Virus record (IMG/VR): IMGVR_UViG_3300024054_000008
Span: 1-64,000 of that record
DNA from: a virus
Direction: 5' to 3' (one strand)
Length of the DNA: 64,000 nt
Shown here in pieces: positions 4,264 through 49,000 of the stretch. The notes under the pieces are model-generated. The model was not told the DNA's origin and searched no databases. It saw only the letters and a program-made list of their open reading frames with translations. The position numbers and the translations under genes were made by a program. Positions within the stretch are counted from its first letter, which is position 1; the number at the start of each line of letters is the position of its first letter.

Positions 4264-6057
4264 TCACACTGTACCAGTTAAATGCATAACCCAACGTGTT
4301 TTTCCAACGTCCCAAATTTGTTTATACCCTTGACTTTCCCTAAGTTGTTTTTCAGTAAGTTGCAAATTTAATTCTGATGATTTTTTACGCAAACCAGATT
4401 TGTGGTATCTAGCACCACCTTTTACCCAGTAATAATCTTGATTCAATTCGCCATCTTTTGTAAAACCGAGTTTTTCATACACTTTGCCAGTAAACAAACG
4501 ATTATCAGAGAATGAAACAATTGATAACGGTTTCATATCAGAAATTGAAACTTTAAACAATTTAGACATAAGGCCATTAATTCTATAACCAAGTTTACAT
4601 GACATTCTAATTAATTCATACTCATATTTTGATTGTCTTGTGGGTTTTTTGAAACTAATACATCCAACTAAAACGCCATCAAAAAAAGCGCCATAGTTAC
4701 GAGAAGTCCTGCATCCACCTATATAATGATTTTCTTCATAAAATTCATCAGCAACTGAAGAAGGAATTTTTTTAACCAAACACGAAGAAGCTCGCAATGT
4801 TATTGATTTATTTATCAGAAGACGGTTCAGAATTATAGATTTTATCTTATTTTGTGATCTTGACCATTCATCCTCAAACACCATCATGTATGAAAATCCG
4901 TTGTCTATTGCATTTTTATATTTATTAAAATCACGATGTTTAGATAGCACCAAACTATGATATTTAAGACCGTTGAATTCAATAACTAATTTAGAATCAG
5001 GGATGCAAATATCATAATTCAATTTACCAATTTTATACTCAAGAATAGACGACACTCCGTTGGAAACAAGAAACTCATGTATTCCTTTTTGTCCATTTGA
5101 TATGCGATATGTTACACACCCGCATGTCAAAGACTTACCGAGCCTAATCGAGTCCCAATTCGGTTTGTATGTTCTTTTGCATGCTGGACAAACAACACTG
5201 AATGGTTTTTTCGTTCTAGTTACAGATTCAAGCATAACAAATGGACTGTTCGGTAAATCTGATTGTGATATTGGTGGTTTTAATCTAGTGATTTCATTTT
5301 GATTTTCAAAATACCATTTCTGGATAGACTCACGACATTTGCCGCATGCGGTAGTTCTACCTCTTGTAACATTTTGTATAATAGCAGAAGTTATATTGCC
5401 ACAATCACAAATCCATTCAACTTTTTTGTTGGATCTCAAACCAATTGAACCTGGATTTAACATTCTTAACTTACCAAATTTTGACTCTTTCCAAAAATCT
5501 GATAATTTTATATCGCATTTTCCACAAGATTTAGAATGACCACGAATAACATCAGTAACAGATCGTAAAGACACACTGCCACAGTCACATATCCACTCAA
5601 CATGCTTATTTGAATATTTATGTATATCAATTGGATTCAACATTCTAAGCTTACCAAATTTTTTGTTTATCCAATCTTTAGCAAGAATTAGATTGCATTT
5701 TCCACAAGATTTGATAGACCCTGATGTTACTAATGCAATTGATACAATTGTATTCATACCACAATCACAGACCCATTCAACTTTTTTATTTGAACTACGG
5801 TTAATGCCGATCGGATTCAACATTTTCAGTTTACCGTATTTTATTGACTTAAAATGATCAGCTGTTAAGAAATTGCATTTGCCACATTTTTTTGTATGAC
5901 CATTAAAAACTTTTGCCCAAGTTTTGACTACATTTTTATTACCACAAGAACAATTAAATACAGCTGGTTTACAAGACCAACGCGGCAGTATGTCTTGTCC
6001 AGGCGCTAAAGTTAAAGTCATCAATTTAACCGTACATATCAAGTAAACCTTTACCAC
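4264..6057 (-). CDS. Zinc-ribbon repeat / Vsr-like nuclease / Mom-like GNAT fusion (copy 1)
   Basis: 597 residues from GTG 6057, or from ATG 6021 (the GTG overlaps the CorA stop). The N-terminal half has four ~61-residue modules, each with FGKLRMLNPI, a SNK-VEW segment, CDCG (CSCG in the first) and a closing CGKC, so each should bind one zinc; a CPAC/CGC ribbon follows. Then comes a PD-(D/E)XK core of Vsr type: YDICIPD, IEFNG and YH, followed by FEDEW. The C-terminus has a GNAT-like segment (HYIGG, YGAFFDG, LVGCISF, VSFSDN, VYEKLGF) resembling the Mom DNA-modification family. Likely role: a free-standing homing endonuclease inserted between the CorA and DUF5659-like genes. A modification activity is inferred only. 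Four relatives lie in this window. Confidence 0.75.
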   Translation of the reverse strand: MVKVYLICTVKLMTLTLAPGQDILPRWSCKPAVFNCSCGNKNVVKTWAKVFNGHTKKCGKCNFLTADHFKSIKYGKLKMLNPIGINRSSNKKVEWVCDCGMNTIVSIALVTSGSIKSCGKCNLILAKDWINKKFGKLRMLNPIDIHKYSNKHVEWICDCGSVSLRSVTDVIRGHSKSCGKCDIKLSDFWKESKFGKLRMLNPGSIGLRSNKKVEWICDCGNITSAIIQNVTRGRTTACGKCRESIQKWYFENQNEITRLKPPISQSDLPNSPFVMLESVTRTKKPFSVVCPACKRTYKPNWDSIRLGKSLTCGCVTYRISNGQKGIHEFLVSNGVSSILEYKIGKLNYDICIPDSKLVIEFNGLKYHSLVLSKHRDFNKYKNAIDNGFSYMMVFEDEWSRSQNKIKSIILNRLLINKSITLRASSCLVKKIPSSVADEFYEENHYIGGCRTSRNYGAFFDGVLVGCISFKKPTRQSKYEYELIRMSCKLGYRINGLMSKLFKVSISDMKPLSIVSFSDNRLFTGKVYEKLGFTKDGELNQDYYWVKGGARYHKSGLRKKSSELNLQLTEKQLRESQGYKQIWDVGKTRWVMHLTGTV

Positions 6058-9985: not shown

Positions 9986-11851
9986 CTATTTTAACTGCTT
10001 TGCAAAAACTGATTTACTAAATTCTTCAACTTTAAAAATATTAATTTTTTTAGCAAATTCACCCTCTTTCATTTTGAGTTTTTTAGCCATGTCCCATATT
10101 GTTTTTTTGTGTATTAAACGACCTGTTGAAACATCAACATAATGATAAGAATTACCGGTGTTATTCAATTTTTTCCAATTATCAGCTTTATATATAGTAC
10201 CAACATCACAAACAGTTGAATCAGAAAAACTTAATATAAGATTTATATTTGGCACATCAGATTTTAGCATTTTAGAAAATTGTTTTAAACAAAAGGTCGC
10301 AAGATTACCGCAAGACACATTTGGTCTAATGCAAAATCTTTTAAGTTCACGAATTGAATGTGATGTATATTTAGTATTAAATGCATTGTTTATTTTTTTG
10401 ATTGAATTATCACGGGTAACACCGCCATACACGCATACACATATTAATTTGTCATCATAATACGCACCATATATTATTGACGAATTTGTAAACCCTCCTA
10501 GATAATGATAGCTTGCAAGAAATTCAGACGCCAACTCACAATTAATTTTTGAAAATTTAATTTCGTCTAGATTTATTATTTCAATTTTTGGTTCTGTAAT
10601 TTTGTAAATATGATAATCTAATATTTTGTGAAGTCTGCCAATATGTAATTCATGCTCCCAAATCCATATCAACTTATGTGTTGTGTATTTTTCAATGTAT
10701 GTTGATTTGCCTCTATCTCTAGCGGTCCCGGAGTAACCATTGTCTTTAAAATTATGAAAATAGTCACCTTGGCATTCGATTAGCAAATTTGCTGAAGGAA
10801 TAAAAAAATCAAAAGAATAATTTTTAATCATAAATTCTCTAACAAATTCTATTTTATATCTATTTTTCAAAATTTTTTCAATTAATTGATTAGTAAATGG
10901 ATCTGACATTCTTTCAACAACTTCGGGAATTAGATTTACAGCATCAACACCGTATTTATTAATCAGTGAATGTTTGAGTTTTTCTCCCCTACAATTTGAA
11001 CAAGAAACTACCCCATTTGATTTCACAAATGACCTAAATTGGATGTTGACATCAGTCTTACAAAAATAACAATTTGCAACCACAATTGATTTTGATGATG
11101 AAGTTAAATTACTTGGGTCATATTTAAATTTGTCAATAGTATTATTTATCACACTTTTATTTAACCAACGATTCAATGATTTAAAGTTGGCGTAATAGTC
11201 ATACGGATTAGAGTTATCGTTACTTTTTAAGTATGAATAGTAAACCGGTTTGCATAACTTACAATGTAATATATTAGTTCTACATTTAATAAATGAATTG
11301 TATTTTAATTCAAAATGTGAGCCACAAAATCCGCATTTTGCTATTACAGGCTTTAATGAATTCAACGGCATGTAATATGGGTCATAACCATATGTTTGCT
11401 TTGTAGATTCGACATCTATAAGATCAAATCGAATCTTAGATTTAACATGTAGGAAAAACTCTCTTTCCGAAGAAAAAGAATCAGACAACAAAAAATTGTT
11501 ATAAATTGACTCACAATGTTTACATGAATTAGTTGATTTATGATATAGTGCATCAGACCTAATATTAAACTCGCGTAAACAAAATTTACATCTGTAAGTA
11601 TAAAATCCATTAGATTTAGAGGTTATATTTACTTCGTGATTTTTCAATTTTTCAATATGACTAACATAAAAATCGTGTTTTGATGAATCAGATTTTAATC
11701 TTGTAAAGGCACTTGATAAACCATTACACGACTTACAGTGCAATGGTTTATCAAGTGCCTTTACATCTCTTTCAAAATTGTTTAAGCAGAATTCACATTT
11801 AACCAGTTTTTTCCGACTTGACTTTGTTGTCGTATGTTGCCGCACTTTCAT
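9986..11851 (-). CDS. Zinc-finger / Vsr-like nuclease / Mom-like GNAT fusion (copy 2)
   Basis: 621 residues. The N-terminal ~330 residues carry repeated CxxC pairs (CEFC, CKSC, CKFC, CKHC, CGFC, CKLC, CYFC, CSNC) forming several zinc modules. The nuclease core reads FDFFIP, then LLIECQGDYFHNF, then a helix and WIWEHEL. The GNAT-like end has HYLGG, YGAYYDDKLI, IRELKRFCIRP, LSFSDS and GTIYKADNW, followed by a basic C-terminal helix block (KKTIWDMAKKL) shared with copies 3 and 5. The start overlaps the end of the FmdB-like gene by 53 bp, as if inserted into its 3' end. A 24-bp perfect inverted repeat lies near the start. Putative free-standing homing endonuclease. Confidence 0.72.
   Translation of the reverse strand: MKVRQHTTTKSSRKKLVKCEFCLNNFERDVKALDKPLHCKSCNGLSSAFTRLKSDSSKHDFYVSHIEKLKNHEVNITSKSNGFYTYRCKFCLREFNIRSDALYHKSTNSCKHCESIYNNFLLSDSFSSEREFFLHVKSKIRFDLIDVESTKQTYGYDPYYMPLNSLKPVIAKCGFCGSHFELKYNSFIKCRTNILHCKLCKPVYYSYLKSNDNSNPYDYYANFKSLNRWLNKSVINNTIDKFKYDPSNLTSSSKSIVVANCYFCKTDVNIQFRSFVKSNGVVSCSNCRGEKLKHSLINKYGVDAVNLIPEVVERMSDPFTNQLIEKILKNRYKIEFVREFMIKNYSFDFFIPSANLLIECQGDYFHNFKDNGYSGTARDRGKSTYIEKYTTHKLIWIWEHELHIGRLHKILDYHIYKITEPKIEIINLDEIKFSKINCELASEFLASYHYLGGFTNSSIIYGAYYDDKLICVCVYGGVTRDNSIKKINNAFNTKYTSHSIRELKRFCIRPNVSCGNLATFCLKQFSKMLKSDVPNINLILSFSDSTVCDVGTIYKADNWKKLNNTGNSYHYVDVSTGRLIHKKTIWDMAKKLKMKEGEFAKKINIFKVEEFSKSVFAKQLK
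11702..11765. repeat. Perfect 24-bp inverted repeat inside a nuclease gene
   Basis: Arms 11702-11725 and 11742-11765 are exact reverse complements around a 16-nt loop, with three more pairs inside the loop after one mismatch. It lies wholly within coding sequence near the zinc-finger N-terminus of the 621-residue nuclease. DNA cruciform or mRNA hairpin formation is expected. Confidence 0.95.
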
Positions 11852-19526: not shown

Positions 19527-19549
19527 TTTAATATAAGGTATTGTCCATC

Positions 19550-22468
19550 ATGGCTGTTACGGTTGGAGTTCAAAAGGTTGCTTCAGAACAAGCAGATGTT
19601 GTTCAAGCAGTCGTGTTATTAAATTCAGATATTGAACTAAAAAATCCGTTATTGTCATTATCTGAACAAGAAAATTTAAACAAAATTTTCACAGCACTTG
19701 GCATAAATTCATCAACGCATGATTTAGCTCAAGTTTCATTAAATACAGTACAGGTCCCATTCTATAACCACTTCACATACAATTTCTCAGTACGTTTCAT
19801 AAAGAAAAACACACCAAATGTAAATCTTCAATTCCAAGGACCGCCTGGTATACAAGGAAAACAAGGAAAACAAGGTGTGCCAGGAAATCCTGGTGGTCCA
19901 CCAGGACCACCAGGAGCAACAGGACCAAAAGGACAAACTGGACCTACTGGGCCACAAGGGGCGACCGGTCTTCAAGGCGCTACCGGCATAACTGGTGCTA
20001 CTGGTCCACAAGGTGTAACCGGACCAAAAGGTGCTACTGGACCACAAGGAGCTACAGGTGTACAAGGACCAACTGGAGTTACTGGTCCAACTGGTGCACA
20101 AGGAGCGACTGGACCGTCTGTAACAGGACCGCAAGGTGCTACAGGTGTACAAGGGCCAACCGGCCCGACAGGACCACAAGGTCAAACTGGTCCGGCAATT
20201 ACTGGGCCACAAGGTGCTACAGGTGTACAAGGTCCAACCGGACCAACTGGTTCACAAGGAGCGACTGGTCCAGTAGTAACTGGTCCACAAGGTGCGACCG
20301 GGTTACAAGGAGAGACTGGTGCAACTGGTCCTACTGGCCAACAAGGTGCAACTGGCCAACAAGGTGCAACTGGCCAACAAGGTGCAACTGGTGCAACTGG
20401 TCCTACTGGTCCGCAAGGTGAGACAGGTCCAGTTGTAACCGGGCCACAAGGTGCCACCGGGCCACAAGGTGCCACAGGTGTACAAGGGCCAACTGGTTCA
20501 CAAGGTGAGACTGGGCCAGTAGTAACTGGGCCACAAGGTCCAACAGGCGTACAGGGGCCAACAGGCGCTACCGGTCCTACTGGGCCACAAGGTGCTACTG
20601 GTCCAGTTGTAACAGGTCAACAAGGTGCTACCGGCGTACAGGGCATACAAGGTTCACCAGGTGTAACCGGAGCAACAGGACCGACTGGAGCACAAGGAGC
20701 AACAGGAGCGCAGGGACCAACAGGTCAAAATGGTCCTACTGGGCCGCAGGGTGCTACTGGTCCAGCTGTTACTGGACCACAGGGGGCAACCGGAGAACAA
20801 GGTGTTCAAGGTTCACCAGGTGTTACTGGTGCAACAGGTGCGACTGGGCCGCAGGGTGCTACTGGACAAGGCGCAACTGGTGCACAAGGACCAACTGGTG
20901 CACAGGGTGAAACTGGACCAGTAGTAACTGGTCCGCAGGGTGCTACTGGTCCACAAGGATCAACTGGGGCTATTGGATCTACCGGTGCTACTGGGCCACA
21001 AGGAGCTACTGGGCCGCAGGGTGCTACTGGGCCGCAGGGTGCTACTGGATTACAAGGACCAACGGGTGTACAAGGAGAGACCGGACCGCAGGGTGCAACC
21101 GGGCCGCAGGGGGCCACTGGCATACAAGGAGCTACTGGACCGCAGGGTGCTACTGGACCGCAGGGTGCTACTGGACCGCAGGGTGCTACTGGACCGCAGG
21201 GTGCTACTGGGCCACAAGGAGCAACTGGGGCAACCGGACCAACTGGTGCACAAGGAGAGACTGGTCCATCTGTAACCGGGCCGCAGGGTGCTACTGGATT
21301 ACAAGGGCCTACTGGTGCACAAGGAGCTACTGGTGCACAAGGAGCTACTGGACCACAAGGAGCAACTGGTCTACAAGGTGCTACCGGCGTACAGGGTGTT
21401 ACTGGTGCAACCGGACCACAAGGCGAAACCGGGCCGCAGGGAGCTACTGGACCACAAGGAGCCACAGGCATCCAAGGACCTACTGGGCCGCAGGGCGCTA
21501 CTGGGCCGCAGGGCGCTACTGGTCAACAAGGTGCTACTGGATTACAAGGGTCGACCGGAGCGACTGGGCCGACTGGACCACAAGGCGAGACCGGACCGCA
21601 GGGTGCTACTGGACAAATTGGTCCTCAAGGATCGCCAGGTGTTACTGGGGCAACTGGTCCAACAGGTGCAACTGGGCCACAAGGCGAAACCGGACCGCAA
21701 GGTGCAACTGGGCCACAAGGCATACAAGGATCGCCAGGTGTTACTGGGTCTACTGGACCGCAGGGTGCTACTGGACCGCAGGGTGCTACTGGACAAATTG
21801 GTCCGCAAGGATCGCCAGGGGTCACCGGAGCGACCGGACCACAAGGCGAAACCGGTCCGCAGGGTGCTACCGGACCACAAGGAGCCACAGGCATCCAAGG
21901 ACCAACTGGTCCTGGCAGTGGCGGTGGTGACGCAGCTTCCGTTACAGCAAATGATACAGCACCAACATTTGGATTTTCATATGTACAAGGTGCAATAGAC
22001 AAAATAAAAAATGTGCTCAATCCTGGTGTAACAGGGCCAGCTGGTGTAACTGGAACAGTTGTGCATACAATATCAAAAGTTCAACATGTTGTTGGGGTTG
22101 CTGGTAAACAATCATCAAACGCAACAGGGTTTGCATCTGTTGGTGCTATAAATTTTGATCCGCGTGATTACAGACCGGCGGTTCCAACCGCATCACAACA
22201 TATTAGATTTGCGGCTGTTATAGAATCGTCAGCAGGTCTTACTGGTACAGCTAGATTGTACGATCTAGCCGTTGGTACATATGTACCAAATTCGATACTT
22301 GCAACAGTTAATAGTACACCAACTTTATTGCGTTCTCCAGATCTTGGTTTGTCACAATTAGATAAAACATATGAAATACAAGTAAGCCTCGGAAGTTCAG
22401 CGACTGGGCCGACTGGATCTGATTCGGTTATTGTGAAATTGGCCAGGATTGAAATTCATCATGAATAA
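19550..22468 (+). CDS. Large collagen-like fibre protein
   Basis: 972 residues from ATG 19550; a TTG at 19541 is too close to the AAGG site to be used. Three parts: an N-terminal ~95-residue globular head, ~693 residues of Gly-X-Y (19838-21916) dominated by [12 protein letters not shown] and GVTGAT, and a C-terminal ~180-residue beta-rich domain after a Gly-Ser-Gly linker. Thr fills the Y position in most triplets, as in the glycosylated BclA fibre of Bacillus spores. About ten regular breaks (GPVVTGPQG or GPSVTGPQG) place four residues between glycines and may act as hinges. Likely a trimeric virion fibre for host adhesion. Sugar-modifying genes follow on the same strand. Confidence 0.88.
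19838..21916 (+). repeat. Collagen-coding tandem repeat array
   Basis: About 2.1 kb of 9- and 18-bp units coding GPQGAT-type triplets, with several 18-bp units repeated exactly in a row (for example near 21140-21210 and 20335-20390). Periodic variant units code the GPVVTGPQG hinges. Homogenisation by recombination is likely. Confidence 0.9.
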
Positions 22469-28743: not shown

Positions 28744-29019
28744 TCAGTCTGTGGAAGAAGAATCAGACTGTGCATCAGATCCAGAATCTGACATAGACCC
28801 AGCTGACCCACCGGTTGAAGATCCTGACGATCCACCAGAAGATGACCCAGCGGCGCCGTCCGTTGACGTTCCGGCTGCGCCACCAGTGGCCGAACCGGCT
28901 GAACCACCAGTTGAAGCTCCGGCCGCTCCTCCAGTACCACCAGACTTCTTATCTTCATCATCACTGCCGCAGTTAACGACAGCCAAACCAACTATTAAAG
29001 CCACGGTGAATTTCTTCAT
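28744..29019 (-). CDS. Short Gly/Ala/Ser-rich lipoprotein
   Basis: 91 residues. A bacterial lipoprotein signal is visible: basic MKK, a hydrophobic core, and Cys17 in VVNCGS (Asn at -1 is atypical). The mature part is an acidic-basic hinge (DDEDKK) followed by ~60 residues of GGTGGAAG, GGSAG and GSSSGG repeats. This composition is a hallmark of Myxococcota surface lipoproteins. The ATG has GGAG upstream at good spacing and an AT-rich -10-like TATAAAAT further up. In a phage it might block superinfection or anchor to the envelope; it may also be a host-derived gene. The gene is GC-richer than its neighbours. Confidence 0.7.
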   Translation of the reverse strand: MKKFTVALIVGLAVVNCGSDDEDKKSGGTGGAAGASTGGSAGSATGGAAGTSTDGAAGSSSGGSSGSSTGGSAGSMSDSGSDAQSDSSSTD

Positions 29020-29074
29020 AGTCTACTCCAAGCTATTCCTACATGTTTAATTTTATAAATGCTTGGAAATTAAA

Positions 29075-29321
29075 CGGGCCGGGAGTTCAGACTGAAATGG
29101 TCGTTACTAACAGCTGACACCTAAAGACTTGGGGCTTTGTGCTTATGGCTGACAAGTCTGAGTGCTAAATGCTACAATATCAGTGCCAGTGTAGATCGAT
29201 GATTCCACAGAGTGCTTCAAGCTGAGCGTACCATACGCCCAGCTCAGAACTCCATGGACAACCATTCATATCATCCCTCCCGGTCCGGAACGCATATCAC
29301 AGCAAAACTGTGATATGGTTC
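29075..29321 (+). ncRNA. Candidate structured non-coding RNA
   Basis: This 277-bp gap is GC-richer than its surroundings and folds on paper into nested helices. A closing stem of 11 bp pairs 29075-29085 with 29277-29287. Inside are hairpins at 29086-29096, 29125-29131/29153-29159 (AGACTTG/CAAGTCT), 29172-29176/29190-29194, and 29222-29230/29234-29247 (CTGA-GCGTA with TACGC and TCAG). A 14-bp hairpin with one bulge follows at once (29288-29302/29308-29321). The closing stem contains one G-U pair on the plus strand that would be C-A on the minus strand, favouring plus-strand transcription. It does not match tRNA, tmRNA or 6S features I know. The 3' hairpin is antisense to the end of the next gene. 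Confidence 0.45.
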
Positions 29322-29800
29322 ATCTTCTCGACCGAATTATTTAAACGGTCGAATTGATCTTGGAGCTTCTCAACAAATGCTGAGCGTTCTGCTTCTGGTA
29401 AATCACATTTATAATGTGTAGTTGTTCTAATACGCTTGCCATCGTCATTATAGTCCCAACTATCATCTTTGGTGTCAACATGGGCACGACACGGCAAACC
29501 TTTCACCCAAACAATTTGACCTTTCAATTCCTGAAGGGTGCGAACTGCTTCAGCAAGATTTGTGGTTTTACCTTCAAAATCGAACGTAGTATTAGCATTA
29601 GTAATATAAACCATAGACTCTAGTTTTATAAGCTGATTCCTAATTTCATCAGACTTTTCAAGAGTTGCTTTAAATGAAAAAGCGGGCTTATTATCAACTA
29701 CATATGAAACGGACGAAGAAGCCCTAGCAAGATTGTCAGACAATTGACCCTTGAGCTTTTTAATTTGACGAAGAGCTTGTGAAATAGTTAGATTAGCCAT
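29297..29800 (-). CDS. DIP1984/septicolysin-like helical protein
   Basis: 167 residues. The organisation fits the DIP1984 family as I remember it: a long N-terminal helix (ISQALRQIKKLKGQL), a short IESMVYITNANT-like strand (here LIKLESMVYITNANT), FDFEGKTTNLAEAVRTLQELK in the middle, and a C-terminal helix ending VEKMNHITVLL. The family has no secure function, and the septicolysin name is historical. Its stop codon lies within the last hairpin of the candidate RNA. It is cut off from upstream genes by a ~100-bp gap containing an AT palindrome (29896-29910). Confidence 0.55.
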   Translation of the reverse strand: MANLTISQALRQIKKLKGQLSDNLARASSSVSYVVDNKPAFSFKATLEKSDEIRNQLIKLESMVYITNANTTFDFEGKTTNLAEAVRTLQELKGQIVWVKGLPCRAHVDTKDDSWDYNDDGKRIRTTTHYKCDLPEAERSAFVEKLQDQFDRLNNSVEKMNHITVLL

Positions 29801-30591: not shown

Positions 30592-31803
30592 CTATCCTTT
30601 AATGTTAACTATTTCTTTCAAAGTATAAACAATGTCAACAAGATCAGATTGTGCGGCCATGACTGCGTTTATGTCTTTATATGCGGCTGGACTTTCATCG
30701 AGAACGCCGCTATCTTGACGACAAATTGTTCCAGAAGTTGCCTCTTTGTGCTGTGCTAACGTTATTGAACGTTTAGCATCACCACGGCTCATTACTCTTC
30801 CAGCACCATGAGAGCAACTACAAAAACTATCCGGATTTCCTTTTCCTTTAACAATATATGAAAACCCTGACATCGCACCAGGAATAATTCCTAACTCGTC
30901 CTGTCTGGCACTGATTGCACCTTTACGTGTTATCCAAACTTGCTCACCGAAATGTTCTTCTTTTCTAATATAGTTGTGATGATTATTTATAACTTCACCT
31001 TTTAAAGTGAATTTTGGGATACCGCTCTTCCTCATTGCGTCAATAACTGTTCTCAAGATTAGCTCACGATTAACTCTTGCGTACTCTTGACACCAATCAA
31101 CTGCATTCACATAATCATTAAAATGTTCAGCATCTTCTTCAAAATACGCGAGGTCTTTGTTTGGAAGTCTTACACCGAGACGTTCCATATCTTTTTTAGC
31201 AAGCTCTATGAAATGAGAACCAATTTTATTGCCAACGCCACGTGAACCGGAGTGGATCAAAATCCATACATTATCATCTTGATCTAAATTGATAGACACG
31301 AAATGGTTGCCACCACCAAGCGTTCCAAGTTGTTCAACGACTGGAGCTATTTTTGATCTACCATGGCGTCCAACAATTCCATCAAAATCAGGCTTCAGTT
31401 TCTCCCAGGCGTTATTGACGTAGCCTGGGGTTTTGCCCCATTGTCCTTCTCTGGCCTTATCAGCACTACCAACCGGCAAGACTTTTGATATGTGGTCATA
31501 TAAAAGTTGATCAGCTTTATCCTGGAGTTTATCGGCAGTCAATGAAGTCTGAATACTAATTACACCACAACCAATATCAACTCCGACCATAGCAGGTACA
31601 ATTGCTTTAATTGTTGGTATGACACTGCCAACCGTCGAACCTCGGCCAAAATGGACATCTGGCATAACAGCTATATGTTTATGAATAAATGAAAGAAGGG
31701 CAGTCTGAAGTAATTGGAGCTTAGCACCAGGTTCAAATGGGACGCCCTTAGTCCATGAATAGACAGGGACGTTTCCGCCTTCTAGGATTTCATAATTACT
31801 CAC
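30592..31803 (-). CDS. rtcB: RNA-splicing ligase RtcB
   Basis: 403 residues from a GTG start, close to the ~408 of the E. coli enzyme. Family hallmarks are intact: GVDIGCGV (Mn-binding Cys), GTLGGGNHF, HSGSRGVGNKIG, HHNYIRKEEHF, RKGAISA and CSHGAGRVMSRGDAK, which contains the His that is guanylylated in RtcB. RtcB joins RNA 2',3'-cyclic phosphate or 3'-phosphate ends to 5'-OH ends using GTP and Mn2+. In phages it is thought to repair tRNAs or other RNAs cleaved by host defence nucleases. No tRNA or tRNA-processing gene lies nearby; the adjacent candidate RNA is a possible but unproven substrate. Confidence 0.95.
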   Translation of the reverse strand: MSNYEILEGGNVPVYSWTKGVPFEPGAKLQLLQTALLSFIHKHIAVMPDVHFGRGSTVGSVIPTIKAIVPAMVGVDIGCGVISIQTSLTADKLQDKADQLLYDHISKVLPVGSADKAREGQWGKTPGYVNNAWEKLKPDFDGIVGRHGRSKIAPVVEQLGTLGGGNHFVSINLDQDDNVWILIHSGSRGVGNKIGSHFIELAKKDMERLGVRLPNKDLAYFEEDAEHFNDYVNAVDWCQEYARVNRELILRTVIDAMRKSGIPKFTLKGEVINNHHNYIRKEEHFGEQVWITRKGAISARQDELGIIPGAMSGFSYIVKGKGNPDSFCSCSHGAGRVMSRGDAKRSITLAQHKEATSGTICRQDSGVLDESPAAYKDINAVMAAQSDLVDIVYTLKEIVNIKG

Positions 31804-32903: not shown

Positions 32904-34511
32904 TTATCGATACAAAACAAATTTCAATTTTGATTTAGTTGGCTTCTTCTCATAACCAAATTTCTCTGCGTATTCACGTTCTTTCATTTTCATTTTTTGA
33001 GCATGTTCGTAAAGAGTTTTTTTGTGAACGACATATCCTTCTGGACTAATATAAAAATAACTAACTGATGTTTCTTTTAAAAATTTCCAATTTGAAGCCT
33101 TATATATGGTTCCTGTATGGCCAAATGTTGGGTCTGCAAATGATATTATTACATCAATTGATTTAAATTCATCAAATAACAGTTTTGAACATCTGGATAA
33201 AAACCAGCTTGCAAAATTTTTCTTTTGATAATTTGGATGAATACAAAAACGATCAAGCTCAATAACTTTAGATGGGCTCAAATTCATAGAAGTTGCAACT
33301 TCTTTTCTGATAATTGGCGTAAATTTACACACCGCAATAAGATCTTTTTCAAGAAAAGCACCAACCACTAATTTTTCTTTCCTACCATATTGTGCGTAAT
33401 GAAACGAATTCAAAAAATCAACATACACATGGTTTTTTGAATTTCGATTTTTATCAATTTCATTGAACTTTCTAACTATAACATTTTCAAAATCAAACTT
33501 ATGTTGAATTTCATTAAAATCCTTTAATACAAATTTAGAAATCTTTTGTTTCACAATTTCTGGGTTAAAAAAATCTCGTTCATGAAGATACAAAATACGA
33601 AAATTTTGAAAATATTTATCAATGTACGAAAATTTTGAAGAGTCTCTTCTCATACCGTCAGGGGTATCATGCCAATATTCACCTTGAACCTCCACAAGCA
33701 CAGAATGGTCTGGAATAAAAAAATCAAAAAGATAATATCCAATTGCAAATTGTTGTTCAAATTTTAAATCTAAACTTTTTAAAATGTTGCCTGTAGCAAT
33801 CTCTATATTTGAACGATATCCATCAGTTGATACCTTCTGTACAGCTTTTAAACGTATGTGTTTAGCTTTCTCGCTTATTTCATAACACGAACGACATATA
33901 TACCGAAAAGATTCCGAAGATTTTCTCTTATGCCGTCTAATAGCATTTTTTAAAGAGTCAAATCTAATTATTATCTCATTATTACAACAAGAACAAACAA
34001 CTATTACTTTTTTACCTTTATCACGATACGAACCAAATTGTTGTAATGTTTTCTCTTGATTAATGGCAGAATCAATATCTGATTGCACTGGCATAGACCC
34101 GCCTGATTTACACTTTCTGCAAACGTATTTATAAATTAATCCATTTTTCTTATATTCCCATATTCTAAATTTTAGAGAACATATCTTTATACTATGGTAC
34201 GAATTGCACACAGAACATAAAACTACTACTAAACTATGTTTATTTTTTGGAGTGCCGTGAAGAAGTTTTGTTTTTTCAACAGAAACATGAGTTATTATTT
34301 CTGGATCTAATCGATTTTTGTTTTTTCTAGTGCAATAATTACATAGTATTATAGTATTATACCCATTACGACGAAGTCTAACTTTTAAAGAATTTAAGTT
34401 TATTACTGATTCACGCCCACAAGGACAATTGATAATTACTGGTGATTTGTTTTTAGGATTTCCATATACATCAATAGTTTTATTTTTGTCATAAAATTTA
34501 GACAAATCCAT
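32904..34511 (-). CDS. Zinc-ribbon / Vsr-like nuclease / Mom-like GNAT fusion (copy 3)
   Basis: 535 residues. N-terminal zinc modules: CPCGRE, CNYC, CSVC, CRKC, CSCC and CRSC pairs over ~210 residues. Nuclease core: LFDFFIPD, then LVEVQGEYWHD, SKFSYIDKYF and ILYLHERDF. GNAT-like end: FHYAQYG, VGAFLEKDLIAVCKF, VIELDRFCIHP, ASWFLSRCSKLL, VIISFADPTFGHTGTIYKASNW, then a basic KKTLYEHAQKMKMK helix. The second half is close to copy 5 (61144). A perfect -10-like TATAAT lies at -11 to -6 of the ATG, so it may have its own leaderless promoter. It sits downstream of the capsid genes' head block, before the capsid terminator-like hairpin. Confidence 0.75.
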   Translation of the reverse strand: MDLSKFYDKNKTIDVYGNPKNKSPVIINCPCGRESVINLNSLKVRLRRNGYNTIILCNYCTRKNKNRLDPEIITHVSVEKTKLLHGTPKNKHSLVVVLCSVCNSYHSIKICSLKFRIWEYKKNGLIYKYVCRKCKSGGSMPVQSDIDSAINQEKTLQQFGSYRDKGKKVIVVCSCCNNEIIIRFDSLKNAIRRHKRKSSESFRYICRSCYEISEKAKHIRLKAVQKVSTDGYRSNIEIATGNILKSLDLKFEQQFAIGYYLFDFFIPDHSVLVEVQGEYWHDTPDGMRRDSSKFSYIDKYFQNFRILYLHERDFFNPEIVKQKISKFVLKDFNEIQHKFDFENVIVRKFNEIDKNRNSKNHVYVDFLNSFHYAQYGRKEKLVVGAFLEKDLIAVCKFTPIIRKEVATSMNLSPSKVIELDRFCIHPNYQKKNFASWFLSRCSKLLFDEFKSIDVIISFADPTFGHTGTIYKASNWKFLKETSVSYFYISPEGYVVHKKTLYEHAQKMKMKEREYAEKFGYEKKPTKSKLKFVLYR

Positions 34512-37803: not shown

Positions 37804-40677
37804 TTAGTTTCCAATCGCCAGTGACGATATTTTACCCTTCCAAATGAAGAACCTTTCTTCATTTGGTGTTAGTTTTCGACCCAATTTGATGCTACATGCG
37901 GCCAGATATGACTGCTGACTTGGGTACAATTTCATTGGTCCAACAGCTAAAACTACTTTATAAAGACTTGATAAAGTAGAATTATCATGACCTAACCTAA
38001 TTCTATCTTCTACCCAAGATAGAAGAACCAAATCACGGCTATGCAAATGATTTGCTTTTATGGCACGCAAACCACCGTAATGAACAATTTTATAATTTTT
38101 CTCTGACCACTCAATCAATTTTTTGTTAGATCCGAATTGCTTTCGAAGCCCGTTTTTGAATTTCAAATATTTGTGATCTGCAGTTGAACCAAGCACCAAA
38201 TTATCATTGTAACCAGTAACACCGACAGGCTGCGTCGGACTTTCGGCATACCCAACATCTTCAGGTTTCGGACCAAATCTTTCTTTGATTCGGTTTGAAA
38301 GAGCCTCAACAATCGTTTCTTGTATGCTGTCTATTAATTTATCAATTTTTTCATCAACGGGAACTTCTTTTGATTCTTCTTTTTCCGGCTTTTCATCGGC
38401 CTTTTCATCAGCTGGCTTGTCAGCTTTATCAAATTCTGTCGGAGCTTCATCAGCTGGCTTATCTTCTGCCGGCTTCTCTTCAGGCTCCTGTGCAATTTTC
38501 ATTGAAGCTGCATGTTTGATACCATCAGGTAAAGGCTGAGACGATCTTACGTCATAAATTTGTTGAGATGCAGCAAATTGTGAATTTGGTACTAAAGTTG
38601 GATTCAAAAGATTGCGTTTAACAGCACCTTTGAAAGCCGGATTTTTAACCCAAGAAGCTTCAATAAATTGATTGCTCTTTGGTACAGAAACGTGACCAAT
38701 TAATTCAGAAATTTGATTCTCTGCGCCAGTATCATCAATAAATTTGTTACCTTTTCCTTCGTATAAAATGCAGGAGCAAAGATTACTATCGTCTGCAGCA
38801 ACATTCCCACACTTTGTACAAATGGTAAAAAGTGATATACAATTAGATACACCAATACCGTTTACGACATATGAATGATCATTATCAACTTGCATATCGT
38901 AAACAAACCCACGGTACTCAGTTTTATCGATTTTCTTTATACGCGAGAATAAATAACCACCAGCAATCCATCGATCTGAATTTCCTGATTTATATTGAAT
39001 TTCTGATTTATTTTTTTGGATTTTTACAGATGGAATTTTTACTGATCCGTCATTTCTAATTCTGATTTGATAATCAATACCGCTTGCATTTGGAAGTAAT
39101 TTAGTACCTTTTCTACGAATTGATGAGACAGTACTTATTATTCCACATCTAGCAAGTAGTAAGAAATACTGATTAGCTAAATTCCTATTACGAGTTGATA
39201 TGAAAACTTGTTTTGTGCCGTTTTTAGTCGTGCTAACACAACCGTCGGAATCAACAACTCCAGATAAAAATGCCAATTGATGATCAATCGGCCATGACAT
39301 GACATCCTGAGAAATCGATTTCTCAAGAGCCTTACGACCGTGCGTATAAGCGTCAATTAAATTCCGAACTGCATGACTAGAAGAAACAAGGTAATAAGCG
39401 TTCTTTCTTTGTTGGCAGGATACAGCTTTTGGTTCCTTGCGCGGATCTGATAAAAATGCTGTGCCTTTTTCTTTATAAGAATTTACCCAATTATAACCAG
39501 TTCTACGACTAACACCAGCACGTTTGCATAAACTGGCGAATGATTTATCATTCTCAGACCAAGCTGAAATGAATTGCGACCTACTAAAAAATTCACCATT
39601 TGCTACAACACGAGTTTCTTTAGACTTCCAAGAAATACGATCAATAATTGATGACATTTCCTTAGCTATGTCAGGATAGCTAACATCACAACATAAACCA
39701 ACCCCAATTGAAGAATCATGTTTATTTTCCCATTTCCAACCGTCACCAATCCAATAACCTAATAATCTAGCTTCTTCAAGTGTAACAGCAGGTTTGATGG
39801 TGTTGGTCGGGATTGGTGTAGCAATAATATCATTGATTTGAATCTTGTCAGCGTTTAATTTTTCAAAGTTATATGTAGTTTGTACAAATTTGTTGTTCTT
39901 ATAAATAACACTATCACGCGGAACAACATAAAAATCATGGTTGCTTGTAGCATTAACAACAGGAAGACCAACGGCTTTGATTTTATAAATCGACCAACGA
40001 TTTTCTCTGATTTGTAAATTGTTTACCCGACACACATTACCTTTTTGAGAAAGGACTTCCATATCAGGTCTGATATCTTCAATCGGTAGGACAGAACCGT
40101 CTCCTAAAGTAACCAAAGACCCTGGAACAAAACAGCCCATCGATTGAGCTGTTATTTCTTCAGATAAAATATCGTCAATTAATTTAGTGTGTTTTCTATC
40201 AGTTGCACAAAGAATGTCAATATAAACTGAATTGCCAACATCTCTTGCTATTGCATCAACAATGAATCCTTTTGACAACTCAGGGATCTGTATGTGCTCT
40301 AAATAAACGTTGGCACCTACAAAAGTTTTGTATGTTGCTAACAATAACGGACGCGCCCATCCGTCCATATTATTGTTCACGATGTTCAAACATTCAGGTT
40401 TAATTCTATAATCTGGATGTCTAACGTCAATCTCCATTCCTCTAACAAGTTGTTTGCCAAGTTTAACATTTTTAGGTTCATAAGTATCAACGGACGCAAC
40501 GATTGTGCTGTGTGATAATAAATATTGATTCGGGTTACATTTTCTCAATAAAGTCTTTGCAACTCTATTAGTATGATCTGACACTCCCTCATTGGGTCTG
40601 CGTAATTCCTCAACCCACTGGTCGTACTTTATATTTGGATTACATACCAAACTACTGGATGTTTTTCTAAACGCCAT
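37804..40677 (-). CDS. Prohead-protease-like protein interrupted by an intein
   Basis: 957 residues as translated, 526 after removal of a 431-residue intein (182-612). The N-extein has SHSTIVASVDTYEP, NNNMDGWARPLL, GANVYLEHIQIPELSKG and AIARDVGNSVYIDIL; spacing of His128 and Ser179 in QSMG resembles the catalytic His and Ser of HK97-type (U35) prohead proteases. After the intein come CTKCGNVAADDSNLCSC (a zinc-type Cys set), FIEASWVKNPAFKGAV, a Lys/Glu/Pro-rich linker and a helical C-terminus. It lies between the scaffold and portal regions, as expected for a head-maturation protease. The protease call rests on pattern, so moderate confidence. Confidence 0.6.
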   Translation of the reverse strand: MAFRKTSSSLVCNPNIKYDQWVEELRRPNEGVSDHTNRVAKTLLRKCNPNQYLLSHSTIVASVDTYEPKNVKLGKQLVRGMEIDVRHPDYRIKPECLNIVNNNMDGWARPLLLATYKTFVGANVYLEHIQIPELSKGFIVDAIARDVGNSVYIDILCATDRKHTKLIDDILSEEITAQSMGCFVPGSLVTLGDGSVLPIEDIRPDMEVLSQKGNVCRVNNLQIRENRWSIYKIKAVGLPVVNATSNHDFYVVPRDSVIYKNNKFVQTTYNFEKLNADKIQINDIIATPIPTNTIKPAVTLEEARLLGYWIGDGWKWENKHDSSIGVGLCCDVSYPDIAKEMSSIIDRISWKSKETRVVANGEFFSRSQFISAWSENDKSFASLCKRAGVSRRTGYNWVNSYKEKGTAFLSDPRKEPKAVSCQQRKNAYYLVSSSHAVRNLIDAYTHGRKALEKSISQDVMSWPIDHQLAFLSGVVDSDGCVSTTKNGTKQVFISTRNRNLANQYFLLLARCGIISTVSSIRRKGTKLLPNASGIDYQIRIRNDGSVKIPSVKIQKNKSEIQYKSGNSDRWIAGGYLFSRIKKIDKTEYRGFVYDMQVDNDHSYVVNGIGVSNCISLFTICTKCGNVAADDSNLCSCILYEGKGNKFIDDTGAENQISELIGHVSVPKSNQFIEASWVKNPAFKGAVKRNLLNPTLVPNSQFAASQQIYDVRSSQPLPDGIKHAASMKIAQEPEEKPAEDKPADEAPTEFDKADKPADEKADEKPEKEESKEVPVDEKIDKLIDSIQETIVEALSNRIKERFGPKPEDVGYAESPTQPVGVTGYNDNLVLGSTADHKYLKFKNGLRKQFGSNKKLIEWSEKNYKIVHYGGLRAIKANHLHSRDLVLLSWVEDRIRLGHDNSTLSSLYKVVLAVGPMKLYPSQQSYLAACSIKLGRKLTPNEERFFIWKGKISSLAIGN
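38842..40134 (-). mobile_element. Intein with LAGLIDADG endonuclease in the protease-like gene
   Basis: 431 residues. Begins Cys182 (CFVPGSLVTLGDGS, block A), has the TSNHDF block B-like segment, and ends HSYVVNGIGVSN before Cys as the +1 residue. Two endonuclease motifs are intact: LLGYWIGDG and LSGVVDSDG. The insertion lies three residues after the presumed catalytic Ser179. Protein splicing is required for a functional host protein. Terminal Ser-Asn instead of His-Asn is a permissible variant. Confidence 0.92.
39308..39325. repeat. Perfect 18-bp palindrome in intein DNA
   Basis: TGAGAAATCGATTTCTCA is a complete palindrome with no spacer. Confidence 0.95.
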
Positions 40678-41484: not shown

Positions 41485-43008
41485 TTAAGATTTATATATC
41501 CAAAGTTTCTTACCAAGATCCCAAATTTTTCTACCATTTTGTTCATCAAATTTCAGTCTTTTCTGACCATTCACGACCCAATAGACAGGTTCAATGTTAT
41601 TAGCAAATTTAAATCCTAATTTTTGAAAAATTGACCCATCATCAATTCTGTTATCAGAATATGCATACACAAATTTTGGACAATAACTAATAACAAATTG
41701 ACTCAGAATTTTCTCTAAACCACCACAAACTTCGAATTTATTGTTAGTTGATATGGAAAGACACCAAGAATTTTGTTCTATATCAAACTCATAGAACGAA
41801 ACACACATGACTAACAAATTATTATAATAAATGCCATAATTTACATCAGTCCCATTGGTTTTGTCATAACAAAATTCTTTATAAAAAGAATTTGCCGTAT
41901 CCTTTGAAATCAAATTTATATGGTAATTATGTATCAGTTGTTCGATGTGTAATTTACCAATGATCAAATTTTTTATTTGTTTATGTTTACCAACCCATTC
42001 ATCCTCAAAAATCATTAGGTAATTAAATCCGCTTGATTTGGCCATTTCATATTTAGCAAGATCATATTTTTTAGAATTTGTTTGTGAATGCCATCGAAGT
42101 CCATTATATTCGATAAGTAAATTGTTAACCGGAACGAAAATATCGTATGTAAAATTATTAATCTTATATTCAAGCACTGGATCAACATCAAAAGAATTAA
42201 TAAAATTGAACAAGGATTGTTGTTGCCCAGAAATTTTATTATAAGAACACCCACATGTTATTGAAATTCCACGACGAATATCATTCCATCTTGGTTTATA
42301 CTTAGAATTGCAAGCATTACATACGGCCAGAAATGGCCTCATAGTTGATTTGATAGGTTCAAGAACTTCAATAAATTCTTTTATATCATCAGGAAAAATT
42401 GGAAATTTCAACGAATGTATTAATTTTTTGTTTATTTCGTATTTTTTCCATGCATTTTGATAACACTTACCACAAGTTTTTGTATCGCCACGTGTAACAC
42501 TCGAAACTGTAATACATTTTTTACCACCACAGCTACACAGCCAATTTACTTTTGAATGTGAATTTTTATGTATATCAATCGGGTTTTCTATACGAAGACG
42601 TCCGAAAGTAATAGATGATAAATAATCTTTGGACAAGACATGACACTTACCACAAGTTTTCTGGCGTTTAGAAGTAACATTTATGATATTTGCAAAAGTA
42701 TGATCACCGCAATCACAGTCCCATTTTATTTTCTTATTTGATTTAAGATGATAATCGGATGGTTCAGACATCCGAAGTGATCCAAATTTAGTTTGCTCCC
42801 AAAACAGTTTTGGGAGCACATTGCATTCACCGCAAGTTTTCTGACCACCAACTACTCTATAAACTTTTATATATTTTTCTTTGCCACAATCACAAACCCA
42901 AATTACCCCTTTATTCGATCCAGAATGAATCGGGATCGGGGTTTTCATCCTTAATGACCCAAATTTTCTTTCCCAAAACTGGGCGGGTTTCAAATTTCTA
43001 TTTATCAA
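41485..43008 (-). CDS. Zinc-ribbon repeat / Vsr-like nuclease / GNAT-like fusion (copy 4)
   Basis: 507 residues from TTG 43008, overlapping the upstream stop as TTGA. Three ~61-residue modules, each FGSLRM-type start, SNK or SHS, C-D/S-CG, then CGEC or CGKC, match those of copy 1; a CNAC/CGC ribbon follows. Nuclease core: TYDIFVPV, LLIEYNGLRWHS, then MIFEDEW. The GNAT-like end is more degraded than in the other copies (YGIYYNNLLVMCVSF, YAYSDNR, IFQKLGF). It is inserted in the head operon between two structural-type genes. Putative free-standing homing endonuclease. Confidence 0.72.
   Translation of the reverse strand: MINRNLKPAQFWERKFGSLRMKTPIPIHSGSNKGVIWVCDCGKEKYIKVYRVVGGQKTCGECNVLPKLFWEQTKFGSLRMSEPSDYHLKSNKKIKWDCDCGDHTFANIINVTSKRQKTCGKCHVLSKDYLSSITFGRLRIENPIDIHKNSHSKVNWLCSCGGKKCITVSSVTRGDTKTCGKCYQNAWKKYEINKKLIHSLKFPIFPDDIKEFIEVLEPIKSTMRPFLAVCNACNSKYKPRWNDIRRGISITCGCSYNKISGQQQSLFNFINSFDVDPVLEYKINNFTYDIFVPVNNLLIEYNGLRWHSQTNSKKYDLAKYEMAKSSGFNYLMIFEDEWVGKHKQIKNLIIGKLHIEQLIHNYHINLISKDTANSFYKEFCYDKTNGTDVNYGIYYNNLLVMCVSFYEFDIEQNSWCLSISTNNKFEVCGGLEKILSQFVISYCPKFVYAYSDNRIDDGSIFQKLGFKFANNIEPVYWVVNGQKRLKFDEQNGRKIWDLGKKLWIYKS
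42794..42818. repeat. Perfect 12-bp inverted repeat in nuclease coding DNA
   Basis: Arms 42794-42805 and 42807-42818 (TGCTCCCAAAAC / GTTTTGGGAGCA) flank a single base; sterically a 3-nt loop with 11 bp is expected. Confidence 0.95.
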
Positions 43009-46097: not shown

Positions 46098-49000
46098 TTA
46101 TTCTCCGAACCTATCACCACCATCTTTACCAGTCTTAGTAAGACCCATATTCTTAATTAAACGATCGACAACATCAGTCTTCTCAACTATAGAGGTTGCA
46201 GCTTCTTCGAGAATCTTCCTTATAACCTCATTGAAAACAGCATCCTTCGGTGTGAACATATCTGATTTCAATCTAGCATGCACATCATCAGTGTCTATGT
46301 TAATCAACTCAAGTATGTAATCAATCGGCAATGAACCCTTCTGGTATAGATTAAACATGAAATCTTGAAGTTCCGTGTTGTCACGCAGTGCTAGCCTGGT
46401 AAACTGAAGTTTTGGAAACAATAAAATTCTGTTGCCGAATTCGTCTGTCTCATAGAATCCTTTTTTATGGGCAACTGGAGCAAACAAATATTGTTCAACA
46501 TACTCAGCTAAACTTTCTCTGTATAACAAATACATAGTATTCATAACATCAAGATGAATCCGCTCACCAGCATATGTAGATTCACCAGTCAACATTGGCT
46601 CTGTAACTCTGAGACCAATAAATAATCGTTTATTTGTTATTTCATACTCAGAACTCAAATCCAGCAAACGATCGCGCGATCCAATTTCATCCCAATGAAC
46701 TTCAAAGTTTGTAACAATTGAAAAGTCAGGATCAATCAAAGCCTGGTCCACTTGATCACGTAAATCATCAGTATCAATAGTGCTCATTTTATCAGCCCAA
46801 ACAACACGCTTTGGGGTCATAGCACGAGATGCGATGCTGGTCTGTGCTTGTCGAAGTTTATCTGAGAAAATAAGGTCGTGTAGACAGTTTTTAGTTAGTG
46901 AAAAACCAGCAAAGAATGTGTGGTCAACCTCAACATTCAAGCTAAAAACATCCCCAGAGAAACGGTCTGACAATACTTCTTTTACTTTATAATATGTGTT
47001 ACCACACCAGTTCTTCGATTTTATATCCAAAGAAATGACGCATGGCGGGTCAACATTAAATTTAGACAATTTTGGTGTAAATCCAGATGATTTTATTGAT
47101 GCAACATCATTTCTAATTGAAAAATTCAACGTGTGTAATGGTTTTGGATTTTTACAATATGTGCCATTTGCTTGACGAACTGGTTTAGTTTTTGTTCTTA
47201 TTTTATAACTTGGTGATAGACCAAGCCCGGTGCACATTATGAATAATTGTTGTACCAAATTTTTGGTTGTTACAGATATATTTATGGTATTACTATTGTA
47301 CTTCCCTTTTGATACAGAGCCATCTGAATCAATTAACCCCCTAAGTATGCCAAATTTGAATGATTCAGGAGTCTCATTTATCCATTCTGGCAAACATTTA
47401 TCATTTTTATTATGTCCAAAACTTCTACCGATCCAACGGCTAAACCAGTCATCATGGAAATGCATCCACCCAAGTTCATAGTTGTGACAAGAAATGTTAA
47501 GACCTAAATTTTCTGCTATGTTAAAAATATGTTCAGCTGATTTTTGACTATTTTCAGAATCTTGTTGCCAACATATTCCGCTAGGACCATATTTAGTAGC
47601 AGATGGCTTACTTGTTTCTGTCCAACCATCGCCCAAATAATATCCAACCAAATATCCAAGATCACCATTCAGGTCTAACCATCTTGGGCAGATTTTGTTA
47701 ACACGGATTTCATATAAAATAGAAGGATCAACATGGGCAGGCCTAAACAATCTAGCTATTGGTTTGTATTTAAGATCTGATTTTATGCAAGGGATTGCAT
47801 ACCCAAGACTTTCAAGATCGCTTATAATGGATTTGTATACAGAGTCATCTGATAAATCAAATTTGCTTATAAATGCTGATGAGGTTATCTCAATTGGAGC
47901 TTCAAGATTCTTTATCCAATCACATATTTCATACAATCTTTCTTTACGAGATATTCGTTGTGGATTTTTATCGTTAAACAAATAGTGCAAAACTAAAGTA
48001 TCATCGCCAGATTCTTCAACATTAATAAATAACGGTAAATCAATCTGAGAACGACGACAACGGAATACCCATTCTTCTTCCTGGAAAAAAGTAAACAAAT
48101 CAAACTTGTTTAATAACTTTTCGGATTTAACAGAAACAACCTTTAAATAATCTCCGGGCATAACATCAATTGCTTCTGTGTCAATTAATTCATCTTGACG
48201 CAAAATTTGTAATTTATGGTCTGATGTAGACCAAATTGTACTTGGAAGTTTATGAACGTTAAGACCAGTTATTTTCCCATCGTATGAACGCTGGCCGCAT
48301 TGAAATTTCCTCCAATGTCCAGATCCGCCAAGCACTTCATCCGTTTCCGGATTAAGTTTTTCTATTGGAACCTGCAAAATTTGACCGTTTCTGCGCGCCG
48401 TGACCTCGGTCCCTGGTAGATGACATCTTTCTATTAAAGAAACACCACGATCATCATATGCTGACTTTTTATGCGCTAAGTGATAAACAAAAGATGAGCA
48501 TAAATAATCATCATATGGACTTGTATTAAGTGGTATTGGTTTGCCAGATTCAAGATTTTCGCGTATCTGTTCTGGTATATCTTCAGCTATTCTGACAGCG
48601 TCTTCGTCACCATCTTGCATAGCCTTCATAACGACAAGTCTATCTTTATCAGACGGAATTAAATCAATTTTAACTTTGTCTGTGTATTGAAAAACTTCGA
48701 GTCTGATTTGTTCTGGTGGTAAAATCCTAAGTCTTTGCCATCCTTGGTAATTTTTTATAACGTATTCTTTTATTGTTGCTATTTGTTCTTCAGCTGATTT
48801 TTCAACATATGTTTTTTCTTTGCGAGTTTGTAGAATGCCTTGCTCATCAATTTCACCAATCTCTTCTTCAACTTCATTTAATAATAATTCATCTGGTATT
48901 TCAATATCATGATCTTCAGCAAATATATAACAGTTATGAGTTGATATGAAACCAGCTTGATAGGTATGATCATCTTCAACTTCAAAATTATATACAATAT

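Follow-up and report, generated by a model that had tools for sequence, protein, structure and literature searches.

Sequence comparison confirmed that the window, i.e., the whole stretch of 64,000 nucleotides analyzed here, which is part of a 182,739-base IMG/VR virus record, contains a conserved structured RNA outside every Rfam family. The element resides next to a gene for a protein of the DIP1984 family, and bacterial genes of this family are accompanied by a folded RNA as well. We propose, with a probability of about 0.6, that the stable structured RNA and the adjacent DIP1984-family protein form one ribonucleoprotein. The evidence, all of it derived from sequences, comprises the structure of the RNA, the periodicity of a repeat within it, its strict genetic linkage to the protein gene and the predicted fold of the protein.

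The element was found as a single copy in the phage genome. It lies in a gap of 277 bp separating the ATG of a short lipoprotein-like gene (29019, minus strand) from the stop codon of the DIP1984-like gene (29297). The preliminary description had called this gap GC-richer, which holds for most of the surroundings (0.44-0.46 versus approximately 0.25-0.40) but not for the adjoining lipoprotein gene with its GC content of 0.55. The plus strand from 29040 to 29340 folded to -98.2 kcal/mol (z -5.8), and none of 100 shuffled sequences was as stable. The 11-bp closing stem described earlier was exact, CGGGCCGGGAG (29075-29085) pairing with CTCCCGGTCCG (29277-29287) with one G-U pair (G29078-U29284) among them. 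The adjacent 14-bp hairpin was likewise recovered as described, with arms at 29288-29302 and 29308-29321 and one bulged base, and does cover the stop codon of the DIP1984-like gene. Four inner hairpins, however, turned out to be a poor description of the interior, for which comparison gave a second closing helix, an array of 7-nt repeats and smaller helices. Also overlooked had been this heptad array and the strict tie to the neighboring gene, which was taken for a bystander. The impression that the RNA belongs to no known family was borne out by an Rfam search of the window, in which none of 4227 families gave a match at the gathering threshold and the best hit was noise (E 3.6 or worse). ARAGORN disclosed neither a tRNA nor a tmRNA in the element.

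Since nucleotide BLAST against cultured phages yielded no match to the element, relatives of the phage were gathered via the major capsid protein. A homologue of the 167-aa protein was present in four of them (42-54% identity), and each time the sequence directly 3′ of its gene weakly matched the element at the nucleotide level. A protein profile added three phages with homologues of 30-40% identity, and the element was detected in all three by nhmmer (E 1e-11, 1e-5 and 2e-5) using a model naive to them. Including the window, the RNA was located directly 3′ of the DIP1984-like gene in eight out of eight phages, which make up the phage membership. A search of 47 whole records of phage relatives with a sequence-only RNA model matched all seven gene-positive records (E 3e-25 to 3e-4), four of which were absent from the model-building set, and none of the 40 gene-negative ones (best E 0.94). 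Pattern scans gave only known carriers and chance matches on viral contigs, and three chance matches, apparently within coding sequence, on genome contigs.

Six helices (H1, H2, H3, H4, H5 and hairpin Z) were present in the same order, with differing sequences, in nearly all phages (Table 1). Because the helix arms had been picked by eye, pairing of the arms with their own partners was compared with pairing across phages as a control. The arms of H1 gave a mean of 27 within the same phage versus 19.5 across phages, the own partner ranking first in seven of the eight phages. For H2 the corresponding means were 22.8 and 15.7; this helix is weak in the window (rank 3) but strong in most other phages. 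A counterpart of H4 exists in seven phages out of eight. The core of the RNA is a tandem 7-nt array, of which the window contains ten copies (29106-29177), the consensus on the plus strand being G-C-U-N-A-N-N (68 units). Autocorrelation revealed z values of 8.1 for period 7 and 4.1 for period 14, while other spacings did not exceed 2.8. The longest exact heptad runs of the eight phages summed to 42, as compared to 13.6 ± 1.7 in shuffled sequences.

Table 1. Features of the element and its neighbors in the window (dot, plus or minus strand).
Feature	Position	Strand	Remarks
Short lipoprotein-like gene	28744-29019	-	ATG at 29019
Structured RNA element, closing stem to closing stem	29075-29287	.	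conserved in eight phages
H1 closing helix, 5′ arm	29075-29085	.	pairs with 29277-29287
H2 inner closing helix, 5′ arm	29095-29103	.	pairs with ~29259-29267
Seven consecutive heptads NCUNANN (read on +)	29106-29154	.	run length, period 7; units on +: ACUAACA GCUGACA CCUAAAG ACUUGGG GCUUUGU GCUUAUG GCUGACA
H4 helix within array, 5′ arm	29125-29131	.	AGACUUG; pairs with 29153-29159
H4 helix, 3′ arm	29153-29159	.	CAAGUCU; partner of 29125-29131
Three more heptads (read on +)	29157-29177	.	UCUGAGU GCUAAAU GCUACAA
H2 inner closing helix, 3′ arm	29259-29267	.	partner of 29095-29103
H1 closing helix, 3′ arm	29277-29287	.	partner of 29075-29085
Hairpin Z, 14-bp	29288-29321	.	overlaps DIP1984-like stop codon
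DIP1984-like protein, 167 aa, proposed RNA partner	29297-29800	-	profile and predicted fold

All eight phage proteins matched the NCBIfam DIP1984 family NF038048 (best E 1.3e-11) and Pfam DUF6847 (best E 1.1e-10). The window protein scored 23.8 bits against NF038048 (E 4e-5), which is under the curated cut-off of 70 bits, and was also under the curated cut-off of the Pfam family. Its AlphaFold2 model (pLDDT 93) consists of helices and two beta hairpins. The best PDB match was 3kdq (TM 0.77, Foldseek E 3.9e-3, probability 1.00), the structure of a Corynebacterium diphtheriae protein without known function. Three basic residues, R11, K17 and R26, are invariant in the eight homologues, which would be compatible with nucleic-acid binding, though not proof of it. 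In the open full-text literature, DIP1984 appears as a hypothetical protein in one paper (PMC10889530), and no paper tying the family to an RNA was found there, descriptions elsewhere being possible. Family members are sometimes annotated as 'septicolysin'.

As direct queries against genome contigs and plasmids, the phage DIP1984 proteins gave no match, and the NCBIfam family profile was used in their place. Among 398 Pseudomonadota genomes it was positive in 4, and among 398 Bacillota genomes in 22. Downstream of the bacterial genes, on the same strand, we identified a conserved RNA of ~190 nt (approximately 175-220 nt) that begins approximately 10-60 nt past the stop codon. It comprises the 5′ motif GGUARC, an outer helix and a 4-bp helix with GA and UGA at its flanks. 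Also present are an H-type pseudoknot and hairpins, a 7-nt array that terminates in ACC and, at the 3′ end, a G-rich conserved tail, GUGAGGGUGGGNAAGGGG. An alignment of 16 sequences exhibited 102 two-sided changes, versus 43 ± 5.7 in shuffled alignments and 29-55 when the structure was slid, a control that is inflated because one member of the alignment had served to draw the structure. The 4-bp helix was 100% paired and all four of its pairs covary. Rfam searches of 19 bacterial loci gave no match to the RNA; the sole hit was an unrelated c-di-AMP riboswitch shortly after the RNA in a Bacillota locus (L234:2285-2459).

A covariance model run over the 398 Bacillota genomes detected the RNA in 22 of 22 gene-positive versus 2 of 376 gene-negative genomes at E <1e-7 (Fisher p 3.6e-34, not corrected for phylogeny); weaker matches, up to E 1e-3, look like noise. 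The two gene-negative matches, L257 (G725; E 8e-32) and L264 (G757; E 1e-12), lack a DIP1984 gene over threshold, and no DIP1984-like ORF was listed close to the RNA. On plasmids, the RNA was found downstream of annotated DIP1984 genes in Picosynechococcus sp. PCC 7117 (L292:1971-2171), Mycobacterium branderi and Enterococcus faecium and, weakly (E ~7e-5), in Psychrobacter and Acinetobacter baumannii; these five plasmids span four phyla. Acinetobacter accounted for approximately 344 records with DIP1984 genes in the plasmid collection. The bacterial RNAs gave z values of 3.4 for period 7 and 3.6 for period 14, but also 4.0 for period 6. When the neighborhoods of 17 bacterial loci were read by eye, no recurrent third gene was apparent and, therefore, the gene-RNA pair seems to be self-contained. 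Two loci (L279 and L280, from genomes G516 and G602) carry two units of DIP1984 gene and RNA about 2 kb apart, with an ORF of ~440 aa between them and a possible DNA methyltransferase gene near. Another bacterial locus (L221:720-805) contains perfect tandem repeats of AGTAAGC, approximately ten copies, about 700 nt upstream of the DIP1984 gene.

The RNAs of phages and bacteria have in common a tandem 7-nt array and a position 3′-adjacent to a DIP1984-family gene (in all eight phages). The bacterial covariance model (R2), also with filters off, gave no credible match in the window or in seven phage loci. The phage heptad matrix did not transfer to the bacterial RNAs (mean z 0.24), and the bacterial matrix produced mixed z values on the phage RNAs. 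Because covariance model and heptad matrix failed to connect them, the two kinds of RNA may be non-homologous; judged by these comparisons, they may be distantly related or may have arisen independently to serve partner proteins from one family. In bacteria, the RNA has the orientation of the gene; in phages, the two would be convergent if the plus strand is correct. A minus-strand phage RNA reproducing the bacterial layout received no support from the covariance model.

A single G-U pair in the closing stem had previously been read as marking the plus strand. One such pair is insufficient to fix the strand, as the minus-strand fold of 29076-29334 is no less stable than that of the plus strand (-103.7 versus -92.5). 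The indicators of the strand (fold energy, consensus folding, wobbles, heptad matrices and neighbor direction) contradicted each other. Consensus folding preferred the plus strand in 86 of 126 overlapping alignment subsets, and wobble pairs read on this strand amounted to 29 G-U versus 21 A-C, a difference that was not significant. Folding of single sequences was mixed, with half of the phages giving a minus-strand fold as good as that of the plus strand. The gene that comes next shares the strand of the DIP1984-like gene in most phages, which favors the minus strand; directions of neighbors were partly judged by eye, and automatic ORF calls are noisy in the GC-rich phages. The minus strand is also favored by the bacterial precedent of an RNA on the strand of the DIP1984 gene.

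A folded RNA beside the phage gene and beside its bacterial relatives suggests a class of RNA-protein machines that has not been recognized so far. In the ribonucleoprotein that we propose, the long interrupted closing helix (H1-H2) would present the array of 7-nt units, and each successive subunit of the helical-bundle protein would dock on one unit. The RNA would thereby serve as a scaffold or ruler for a protein oligomer along the array. In bacteria, the co-oriented protein gene and RNA are probably co-transcribed, and phages would possess a pair of their own. Physical binding, a ratio of one subunit per heptad and oligomeric assembly are what we infer from the array and its neighbor. On somewhat better than even odds, then, DIP1984 proteins are the protein half of a new ribonucleoprotein class. 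An oligomer of them would be offered a 7-nt array by the RNA half, of which the phage element would be a divergent or convergent form. The family ranges over at least four bacterial phyla, many Acinetobacter plasmids and large phages, and its occurrence on plasmids and phages would fit a role in mobile elements, which is our guess. The pair may serve in defence, in counter-defence or in the control of RNA. DIP1984, a family with a solved structure but no known function, now has a specific candidate RNA partner, belonging to a widespread RNA class outside Rfam, and the heptad array predicts one subunit per 7 nt.

Alternatively, the RNA might be a cis-acting autoregulatory element that belongs to the 3′ portion of the mRNA for the DIP1984-family protein, and this protein might bind it to regulate its own message, in the manner of ribosomal proteins or TRAP, which act on leaders. 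Autoregulation agrees with the strict linkage, with the direction of the next gene in most phages and with the closeness of the bacterial RNA to the stop codon of a co-oriented gene. We nevertheless consider it unlikely, as the structure is bigger and more intricate than typical sites, including pseudoknots and the conserved G-rich tail, the element does not form a leader but lies beyond the 3′ end of the gene, and two Bacillota genomes contain the RNA without a detected gene. Very unlikely is a plus-strand noncoding RNA, antisense and convergent, that controls the DIP1984-like gene through the overlap of the 3′ ends. Hairpin Z covers the stop codon and was flagged as terminator-like on this strand, although flags of this kind were no more frequent than by chance and the hairpin extends into coding sequence, and the consensus folding and wobble counts point in the same direction. 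However, the overlap spans a few codons only, the bacterial counterparts are sense, sigma-70-type promoters did not occur beyond chance, and half of the phages fold as well on the minus strand. Little credence can be given to an element that works as DNA, its inverted repeats and heptads serving packaging, replication or recombination: G-U counts that favor neither strand clearly would be expected of DNA, and heptads could be protein sites on it, but there is a single copy per genome, tied to an accessory gene instead of packaging or replication genes, and the bacterial counterpart exhibits compensatory changes and pseudoknots. Chance structure or an untranslated spacer in a repeat-rich phage, which the window alone would be insufficient to exclude, can practically be dismissed, as the original claim of a structured RNA is upheld by conservation in eight phages with changing sequences along with the fold z of -5.8.

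The proposed ribonucleoprotein resembles several known systems in part. TRAP binds regularly spaced (G/U)AG-repeat RNA motifs, one per protein subunit. Spaced short RNA motifs serving one subunit each are, by hypothesis, what it shares with the present pair, whereas the units here are 7 nt long, differ in sequence, lie inside a large folded RNA and face another protein fold. In type III toxin-antitoxin systems (ToxIN), RNA repeats of approximately 36 nt precede the toxin gene. The likeness is a tandem-repeat RNA beside a protein gene, but here the units measure 7 nt and are part of a single fold on the 3′ side of the gene, and no resemblance of the protein to the nuclease was found; a Pfam search of the neighboring protein gave no ToxN match. 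Ro60/Rsr and Y RNAs are alike in that the gene of an RNA-binding protein adjoins its structured RNA partner, and an RtcB-like RNA ligase gene lies 1.3 kb from the RNA in the window (30592-31803). They differ in that no Ro protein came to light and no Rfam match was obtained here, and RtcB was discarded as an anchor for the element, the recovered RtcB relatives (L003-L026) being without the phage RNA. OLE, GOLLD and ROOL are structured RNAs without known job as well, some of them occurring in phages; the phage RNA is shorter, has no Rfam match and is marked by its heptads and the DIP1984 link. OLE RNA is reported to have protein partners (PMC12054373, PMC12286853).

A distant DIP1984-like protein of 218 aa, probably the Foldseek hit A0A514A0V3, is encoded by Aeromonas phage LAh_9 (MK838115; L288:18611-20255). 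Its gene adjoins one whose annotation reads ProQ-like RNA chaperone and is itself followed by an unannotated gap of 605 nt that revealed neither 7-nt periodicity nor unusual stability. Inspection of the window by eye also disclosed several large ORFs whose products resemble related, free-standing proteins of the homing-endonuclease type (4264-6057, 9986-11851, 32904-34511, 41485-43008 and 61144-63003). Two further large ORFs, 37804-40677 and 46098-51845, seem to be interrupted by intein-like insertions. A collagen-like protein of 975 aa with G-X-Y repeats is encoded at 19541-22468.
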